From the NCBI GenBank assembly GCA_023251895.1, contig JAHEXX010000003.1, positions 1 through 42,306 on the forward strand: DNA of 42,306 nt. Direction: 5' to 3'. Every line of letters begins with the position of its first letter. The first letter of the stretch is position 1. Source of the DNA: a bacterium (GTDB lineage: Bacteria > Actinomycetota > UBA4738 > HRBIN12). Shown here piece after piece: positions 15,286 through 17,501 of this stretch. Below the pieces are notes generated by a model that was not told the DNA's origin, ran no database searches, and worked only from the letters and a program-made list of their open reading frames with translations. The position numbers were made by a program, and so were the translations under genes.

Positions 15286-15761
15286 TTAGCGGGCGGACCG
15301 GCGCGTTCCGATCGCGTTCTTCGACCCCTGCAGGTGGCGCTGTACGCCCACGTCGTAAGCCTCTCGGAGCCAACCTCGCACCTCGTCATCGAGGTCGTCT
15401 TTCGACCGGATGTGCACGTGGTAGACGTAGTTGTTCGGCGGGATCTCCTCGATCCTGGCGAAACGAGGGCTGTCGATGCGCCGCTTCAGCCAGAACCCGA
15501 TCCGCAGGCCTCGCTTCTGGAGCGTGGCTCCGGCGAATCGCACACGGACCATGAAGCCGATCCCCGTCTTCACCGCCACCGCCTTCACGCCGGGCCCGGA
15601 CGCGCGGACCATCCGCGCGTCCGGTACAGGTCGACGACCTCCTTGGGCTTGCCGCGGAGCTGATCCTGCACGGTCATGCGGACGCATGAGTGCCACATGT
15701 TCCTGGTGACGAAGCGCTGGCCGCAACGCGGGCACCTCCAGAGCGGTCGGAGGTCCCCCAC
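15286..15761 (-). pseudogene. DUF5655-type protein gene broken by a frameshift
   Basis: Two adjoining frames rebuild one DUF5655-like protein. The first (15761-15585, 58 aa) starts at GTG with LWRCPRCGQRF and a second Cys in WHSC, a small zinc ribbon, and runs to EVVDLYR at 15621. The second frame resumes at MVRASGP from 15612 and continues KTGIGFMVRVRFAG, KRRIDSPRFARIEE and DDEVRGWLREAYDVGVQRHL, the rest of the domain. The 8 nt between (15613-15620) are not divisible by three, so 1 or 4 nt seem to have been lost. This could be genuine decay or a base-calling or assembly error. It starts 5 bp after the MoaD-BNR stop. Function of the family is not established. Confidence 0.8.
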
Positions 15762-15766
15762 CGCGC

Positions 15767-17098
15767 TTACCTCGTCGCCCGCACCGATGTGACCGGCGCG
15801 AGGCGAGGTGCGACGGTGCTCCATGTCTCGCCGCCGTCCGCCGAACCGAAAACCTCGCCGGACGTCGCGCCGAAGTACATCCCGAGCGGCTCCAGTCCGT
15901 CGTGCCCGAAGGCTTGGCGGAGGATCGTGAGGTAGGCGTCCCGCGACGGCAACCCCTCGGCCCGAGGTGCCCACGTCTCGCCCGCGTCGCGGGTCTCGTA
16001 TACGCGGAGCTTCCCCTCCGGCGTCACCCGGTCCCGGTCGGCCACCAGGGGGATGACGAAGGCCCGGTCCGGGTCGTGCGGGTCCACGACCATCGGGAAC
16101 CCGAAGTCCGACGGGAGCCCGTCCGCGATGTCGATCCAGCTCTCCCCGGCGTTGTCGCTGCGGTACACGCCCCCGTGGAACTGCATGAACAGCCGCTCCG
16201 GGCGGCGCGGGGCCCGGTGCATGTTGTGCACGCACAGGTCGAGCGTGCTGGCACGGGCCTCTTCCGGGAGGTACCGGGGGACCAGGCCGCCGTTGCCGTT
16301 ACGCCAGGTCTCCCCGCCGTCGTCGGTGATCCACACGCCGACCGCCGAGATGCCGACCGCCATCCGCTCCGGCGCCTGCGGCCACGGGCAGATCGAGTGC
16401 AGCGCCAGCCCTCCCAGCCCCGGCTGCCAGTCCTTGCGACCGGGCTGGTCCCACAGGCCCCGGTTCAGTTGCCAGCTGTGGCCGCCGTCCTCGCTGCGGA
16501 ACAGCGCCGCGGGATCGACGCCCGCCCACACGACCCCGGGCTCCTCTCCGGGCTGCACGACCCAGGTCCGGACGACGCTGGCATCCTCGCCCTCGGGGAA
16601 CTTGGGGCCGTCGGCTTGTTCCCACTCCTCCGCCAGCGGGTCTTCCGTGTGGTAGAGCCGCGGACCGAACTGCCCGTGGGTGACCGAGGCGAAGTAGCGG
16701 CCCGACCGCGGGTCGCGCGTCGCGAACTCCACCATGGTCCCGGAGAACCGCCGGGCCGCGATCTCCATGGCGCCGCCCCGAGGGCCCCGCAGGACGAACA
16801 GCCCCTTCTTCGTTCCCACCAGGACCTCGGCGTCGTCCGCGCCCCCGGAGATGGCGGGGAGGATCTGAACGCGGTCGGCTTCCGACACCGGGGCCTCCGG
16901 ACCGGCGCGTTCCCCGTTCACGAAGACGGCGACGTGCACGCGGATCGAACCTTGTTCGTCGAGCACCCACCCGGCCAACCGGGGATGGGCGCGTTCGAGC
17001 CCGCGGACGACCTCCGCGACGCTCTCCCCGCCGATCCGGACCTCCCGCTCGCCGCCGGCCAGGTCCCGGAGCGGTGACCGCAGGCTGACCACCGCCAT
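15767..17098 (-). CDS. MoaD/ThiS-like ubiquitin-fold domain fused to a BNR-repeat beta-propeller
   Basis: Fusion of 443 aa. Residues 1-86 form a beta-grasp domain of the MoaD/ThiS kind, with VVSLRSPLRDLAGGE at the start, VHVAVFVNGE in the middle and the PAISGG end where stand-alone carriers stop in Gly-Gly. Without a stop the chain runs into VLVGTKKGLFVLRG, the start of an exo-sialidase/WD40-like propeller with repeated Asp-box elements (SEDGGHSW, TDDGGETW, SDNAGESW, RDAGETW, SADGGETW). ATG at 17098 starts the beta-grasp domain. In stand-alone carriers the Gly-Gly tail is adenylated or conjugated; here it is buried at residues 85-86 unless the chain is cut. No signal peptide. Lies 10 bp after a Rid gene. 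Confidence 0.85.
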   Translation of the reverse strand: MAVVSLRSPLRDLAGGEREVRIGGESVAEVVRGLERAHPRLAGWVLDEQGSIRVHVAVFVNGERAGPEAPVSEADRVQILPAISGGADDAEVLVGTKKGLFVLRGPRGGAMEIAARRFSGTMVEFATRDPRSGRYFASVTHGQFGPRLYHTEDPLAEEWEQADGPKFPEGEDASVVRTWVVQPGEEPGVVWAGVDPAALFRSEDGGHSWQLNRGLWDQPGRKDWQPGLGGLALHSICPWPQAPERMAVGISAVGVWITDDGGETWRNGNGGLVPRYLPEEARASTLDLCVHNMHRAPRRPERLFMQFHGGVYRSDNAGESWIDIADGLPSDFGFPMVVDPHDPDRAFVIPLVADRDRVTPEGKLRVYETRDAGETWAPRAEGLPSRDAYLTILRQAFGHDGLEPLGMYFGATSGEVFGSADGGETWSTVAPRLAPVTSVRATR

Positions 17099-17108
17099 GT
17101 GCCGGAGT

Positions 17109-17501
17109 CTAGCCGTCGTCGACGATGGCCGTGACCTCGACCTCCACCAGGATCTGGGGATCCAGGAAGGTGAGGCCACCGACGGTCGTGTTCGCCGGCT
17201 TCACGTCGCGAAAGATCTCACCGTGGGCCCTGGCCGCCTCCTCCCACCGGGTCGCGTCCGCCAGATAGATCCGCGTGCGGACGACGTCGGCGAACGACGC
17301 ACCGAGCTCGCCCAGTGCCTCCCCGATCGTCTGCAGCGCGGCAGCGGTCTGGCCCCGCAGGTCCCCTGGATGGAGCACGGTTCCGTCCGGCGTGGCCGGG
17401 GCCGTGCCGGCCACCTCCACGATGTTCCCGACCCGAACCGCTCGCGAATACCCCATCACCTTCGCCCACGGGCGGTCGGCGTCCACCAGCCGTCGCGTCA
17501 T
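17109..17501 (-). CDS. RidA/YjgF-family protein
   Basis: Rid-family trimer-forming protein, 130 aa, with the family segments VEVAGTAPATPDG, LRGQTAAALQTIGEALGE and VVRTRIYLAD and the C-terminal LVEVEVTAIV strand. RidA proper hydrolyses reactive enamine/imine intermediates using an Arg just before the last strand; here that segment reads TVGGLTFLDPQILVEVE without an Arg, which suggests a Rid subgroup with a different activity. ATG at 17501 has GGAAGGAG upstream. Probably leads the transcript that also carries the MoaD-BNR fusion. A TATGGT -10 candidate lies at 17541 down to 17536. Confidence 0.9.
   Translation of the reverse strand: MTRRLVDADRPWAKVMGYSRAVRVGNIVEVAGTAPATPDGTVLHPGDLRGQTAAALQTIGEALGELGASFADVVRTRIYLADATRWEEAARAHGEIFRDVKPANTTVGGLTFLDPQILVEVEVTAIVDDG

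Follow-up and report, generated by a model that had tools for sequence, protein, structure and literature searches.

In-frame fusion of a ThiS/MoaD-like carrier domain to an Asp-box beta-propeller in Actinomycetota and Acidobacteriota

Our analysis describes a genuine gene fusion in a bacterium of the phylum Actinomycetota (UBA4738; HRBIN12), in which a small ThiS/MoaD-like carrier domain ending in Gly-Gly continues without a stop into a seven-bladed Asp-box (BNR) beta-propeller. The fused form is evidence for a physical link between carrier and propeller, which in many soil bacteria are encoded by adjacent genes. At a probability of about one half, our best explanation is that carrier and propeller form a dedicated pair and that the fused protein is a capped carrier, which would be freed by a cut after Gly86 and then be activated by an E1 enzyme, with the propeller as its partner. 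If such a cut does take place, a propeller family that bears glycosidase labels would belong to sulfur-carrier or ubiquitin-like chemistry. Common as it is, the pair is annotated only as “MoaD/ThiS family protein” plus “exo-alpha-sialidase” or “hypothetical protein”, the names under which it also appears in plasmid records.

The fused gene and its surroundings

The gene lies in the window, i.e. the whole stretch of 42,306 nucleotides that was analysed (GenBank assembly GCA_023251895.1, contig JAHEXX010000003.1, forward strand positions 1 to 42,306). Its parts and neighbours are as follows.

15767..17098, minus strand: fused gene (P0001), ThiS/MoaD-like domain plus Asp-box (BNR) beta-propeller, 443 aa; homologous start MAVV in relatives
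16841..17098, minus strand: ThiS/MoaD/SAMP1-like beta-grasp domain, residues 1-86 (Pfam ThiS, NCBIfam SAMP1 and PDB sequence matches)
16841..16846, minus strand: Gly85-Gly86, the buried Gly-Gly, invariant in 18 fused proteins, with varying codons
16829..16840, minus strand: junction linker ADDA, residues 87-90, without in-frame start codon
15770..16828, minus strand: seven-bladed Asp-box beta-propeller, residues 91-443 (Pfam BNR; 3b7f by sequence and fold)
17109..17501, minus strand: Rid-family gene (PF01042), 130 aa, upstream, with its end some 10 bases ahead of the fused gene
15286..15761, minus strand: DUF5655 gene, downstream, with a broken reading frame

The reading frame of 443 codons, on the minus strand, opens with an ATG at 17098 and closes with the stop codon at 15767-15769, matching the coordinates given in the original prediction. 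The latter described a MoaD/ThiS-like domain in the first 86 residues, ending in PAISGG and followed in frame by a propeller, and this architecture is confirmed by the Pfam matches to ThiS and BNR. The Gly-Gly is thus not at a free C-terminus of the gene product, with 357 more residues lying downstream of it. Residues 9-86 match ThiS (PF02597) with an E-value of 4.7e-8 and 33.9 bits (curated cut-off 22.5), and the best match with a name for the N-terminal part is NCBIfam SAMP1 (NF041918, E 1.4e-11), at 44.7 bits below the equivalog cut-off of 60 bits. In a PDB sequence search the closest solved structures to residues 1-86 were 4n6e (a ThiS/MoaD family protein), archaeal SAMP1 and mycobacterial CysO (3dwg, chain C); MoaD was also matched. 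Sequence comparison served to place the beta-grasp domain, the Foldseek and VIA results falling mainly on the propeller.

For the propeller, the 443-aa protein matches BNR (PF02012) above the cut-off and Sortilin-Vps10 marginally. The nearest solved propeller structure is 3b7f (34-35% identity, phmmer E 1.7e-54), and the two agree in fold with a VIA Z-score of 50.3 and an rmsd of 1.8 over 350 residues. Relatives are annotated as glycoside hydrolases (sialidase/GH74); GH74 structures match the fold of the propeller at 11-19% identity, and the glycosylhydrolase model NF045728 scores 42 bits where its cut-off is 175. A functional site in the propeller is suggested by invariant polar residues, which include His146, His203, Gln218, His220 and Arg225 (in the propeller's own numbering). 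An AlphaFold model of the fused chain (four plasmid-collection rows were left out of the input) reaches a mean pLDDT of 95.9, about 97 in the propeller, and a pTM of 0.86 for the two-domain chain. Ser-Gly-Gly 84-86 is the sole stretch of three or more residues in this model with a pLDDT below 50.

The neighbouring genes had been noted together with the fused gene as a set of unrecognised pathway. This set is not conserved: Rid recurs as a neighbour in G004 only, the nearest relative, and DUF5655 in no fetched relative. Both are chance neighbours, and a Rid-carrier-DUF5655 pathway was rejected. The zinc-ribbon-like N-terminal part of DUF5655 and its C-terminal part are in different frames, so that this gene is either a pseudogene or affected by a local sequence error. 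Active RidA proteins are expected to carry a PAR-type motif; the Rid protein of the window has PANTTVGG at the corresponding place and is possibly no ordinary imine deaminase.

Spread of the pair and conservation of the Gly-Gly

A scan with one genome per species yielded 80 loci, and removal of duplicates left 18 distinct fused proteins from independent assemblies of Actinomycetota and Acidobacteriota, five of them from the latter (L048, L050, L052, L053 and L055). Within the order of the source genome, the propeller is present in 17 of 26 relatives. Fused examples are G004, G019, G020, G021, G002, G012, G024 and G026, while other relatives have two genes: in L007-L009 the carrier ends at a single in-frame TGA, and elsewhere a short overlap or gap is found between the genes. 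L082 is an apparent further fusion with a frame break. Of 396 genomes sampled from the phylum, 89 have the propeller at an E-value of 1e-40.

The original prediction had proposed a search for stand-alone MoaD-like and BNR genes lying side by side, and such pairs proved to be abundant. Their host groups include Actinomycetota, Acidobacteriota, Eisenbacteria, Gemmatimonadota and Pseudomonadota; Burkholderia, Cupriavidus and a Pseudomonas plasmid carry them too, and cultured organisms with the pair include Solirubrobacter, Patulibacter, Cupriavidus and Burkholderia. For 100 different propellers on the tree, the carrier is located just upstream (33), downstream (36) or in the same chain (16); for 14 propellers no carrier lies close by, in part owing to contig ends. 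The two genes mostly overlap or leave gaps of a few bases, as translationally coupled genes do. Fused forms and carrier-first pairs make up one well supported group of the propeller tree, on which the fused label requires at least two to three changes; fusion or splitting has therefore happened more than once. An all-against-all comparison of neighbouring reading frames detected no conserved third gene near the pair, returning the pair itself and local synteny of related strains only, and phage records gave no match.

In several lineages no carrier gene adjoins the propeller. L027 is such a case; its carrier may be encoded and act at another place, or have been lost. Five species of Nonomuraea (L043, L090, L092, L097 and L101) keep a carrier-like partner that lacks the Gly-Gly and consistently ends in PALA (PSLA in one). 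An ending of this kind rules out a classical carrier role for the partner, in which nature has, as it were, mutated the carrier motif.

All 18 fused proteins have [ST]GG at the junction. All four glycine codons are in use at each of the two positions, i.e. the codons have turned over without a change of amino acid. The linkers behind the motif comprise 4-24 residues and are unconserved, and 15 of the 18 proteins have Ala or Ser directly after the Gly-Gly. Among the 15 complete fused proteins that were aligned, the carrier domains share a mean pairwise identity of 51% (35% at the lowest), and both glycines are among the 14 invariant columns out of 86. The evidence leans to selection on the Gly-Gly itself, at the least. 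The main argument for more than this comes from the linkers: an exact [ST]GG has been retained ahead of about 20 residues that would make it unnecessary as a mere hinge, and we infer that the Gly-Gly is still chemically active or serves as a recognition site for an enzyme.

A start codon within the linker, from which the propeller might be translated on its own, was rejected, as 12 of the 18 linkers, ADDA included, have no in-frame ATG, GTG or TTG. Free carriers located upstream of a propeller extend past the Gly-Gly by 1-4 residues in 16 of 38 cases, and by 25 residues in L154, where the tail seems to overlap the propeller gene start out of frame. Such tails are common in the phylum and not special to paired carriers, since CysO-like paralogues have residues past the Gly-Gly at least as often (17 of 31; 1-4 residues in many).

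Processing, docking and other explanations

In the explanation that we favour, a carrier of the MoaD/ThiS/SAMP1 type and a cytosolic propeller of the Asp-box family would act as a dedicated pair, whose two adjacent genes have become one reading frame in the source lineage. A JAMM peptidase or another protease would cut after Gly86, an E1 enzyme would activate the freed Gly-Gly for thiocarboxylate formation or conjugation, and the propeller would be the partner of the carrier, either as sulfur acceptor or enzyme or as a docking platform. Candidate enzymes are encoded in one cluster elsewhere in the genome (L002, G000:C129:125-1616).

C129:125-388: CysO-like carrier
G000:C129:490-1200: E1 (ThiF match, E 3.1e-82), single copy in the genome
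C129:1278-1616: JAMM peptidase, single copy in the genome

E1-like or JAMM genes had been suggested as possible neighbours of the fused gene. None is near it, and the genome has one of each, beside the CysO-like carrier on this other contig. The genome holds four ThiS-family domains including the fused one, and the CysO-like carrier is a separate paralogue with 37% identity to the fused carrier over residues 4-87. JAMM was also found in 13 of 13 further genomes (in one weakly), comprising seven from outside the order that encode fused proteins and six from the genera Nonomuraea, Actinomadura and Microbispora. Since nearly every genome of the order has JAMM and E1, their presence is uninformative; it is compatible with processing but cannot discriminate between the hypotheses, and was dropped as a discriminator.

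The capped-carrier explanation is built on the pairing, the fusion, the selection on the Gly-Gly, the disordered junction and the enzymes present in the genome. The proposed cutting would follow the precedents of MoaX, DR2607 and QbsD/PtmS1 (see below); the activation and the role of the propeller are likewise proposals. Between the two options of the original prediction, processing or a structural role of the domain, the evidence leans to processing (Gly-Gly in 18 of 18, codon turnover, a disordered motif), and the structural option is kept by the Nonomuraea pairs. These pairs without Gly-Gly count against a capped carrier, as do the propellers without an adjacent carrier and the lack of a conserved third gene around the pair. 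More tentatively, the pair may constitute a pathway of sulfur transfer or ubiquitin-like modification that spans several phyla and has not been described before, in which fused forms would be precursors, JAMM would free the carrier and the propeller would be its dedicated acceptor or a ligase-like platform.

The main rival is a chain that stays uncut. Here, the carrier domain would be a docking or regulatory subunit, the fusion would fix a non-covalent complex, and the Gly-Gly would be structural, forming a tight turn or docking as a tail. Neighbouring genes that fuse usually encode parts of a physical complex, the model of the two-domain chain has a pTM of 0.86, and Nonomuraea retains a carrier-like protein beside the propeller despite the loss of the Gly-Gly. 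Yet the Gly-Gly is the least ordered part of the model, and a hinge would not need an exact [ST]GG in front of linkers of about 20 residues. We regard an uncut docking subunit as possible, though less likely than processing.

A neutral accident, i.e. the recent loss of a stop codon with the Gly-Gly persisting by inertia and the fusion having no mechanism of its own, is improbable. Few changes would be needed, since one in-frame TGA separates the genes in close relatives (e.g. L009), and two to three changes on the tree are enough to place the fused label. Against this, the fused carrier domains come from two phyla and differ at up to 65% of positions, and both glycines show synonymous turnover without a single loss in 18 proteins. 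Finally, a joining of two genes by sequencing or assembly error, which relatives with a stop codon after the Gly-Gly were to have revealed, might be suspected from the fragmented assembly behind this contig and the frameshift in the adjoining DUF5655 gene, but is dismissed in view of 18 in-frame fusions without internal stops in independent assemblies from different projects and phyla.

Comparison with known carrier systems

Our searches of openly licensed papers found neither the carrier-propeller pair nor the fusion. In a survey of prokaryotic ubiquitin-like domains (PMC1779556) the words propeller, BNR and sialidase are absent, and a second such survey (PMC1949818) mentions a propeller once, in a figure key. 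MoaD-MoaE and ThiS-ThiG fusions are already known (PMC1779556). The closest precedents are two of the former: MoaX (Rv3323c) of M. tuberculosis is cut between Gly82 and Ser83, with Gly81 being required (PMC4326299), and the Deinococcus fusion DR2607 is cut by DRJAMM (PMC8832034). Like our fused protein, both have an N-terminal MoaD whose Gly-Gly is buried by an in-frame C-terminal partner, and versions with separate genes exist. The small residue after the Gly-Gly is a further likeness; MoaX has a Ser there, and the carrier-propeller fusions have Ala or Ser in the 15 cases mentioned above. They differ in the partner, which is MoaE with its known active site instead of an Asp-box propeller, for which the cut is a proposal drawn from these precedents.

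Short caps are known from Streptomyces, in which PtmS2 and PtmS3 extend two residues and one residue past the Gly-Gly, respectively, with removal attributed to a JAMM peptidase that acts like QbsD (PMC6006322). QbsE and PtmS2/PtmS3 with their JAMM proteins QbsD and PtmS1 resemble the present case in having a ThiS/MoaD-like carrier, residues past the Gly-Gly and a JAMM in the genome. Their caps, however, are one or two residues and not a whole propeller domain, and our fused gene has no adjacent JAMM. The CysO-MoeZ-Mec pathway shares the SAMP1/CysO-like fold, and the JAMM-E1-CysO cluster of the genome is a possible source of shared enzymes, whereas the fused carrier is a separate paralogue and no cysteine synthase was seen at its locus.

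On the propeller side, 3b7f (reut_b4987 of Ralstonia eutropha) is a seven-bladed Asp-box propeller whose function is listed as not known (PMC2716378); it matches the propeller family over its full length and lacks a fused carrier. The MoaD-related protein 1v8c of Thermus (168 aa) likewise combines a MoaD-like domain with a C-terminal extension past the position of residue 86, according to the sequence match, but at about 80 residues this extension is too short for a propeller.
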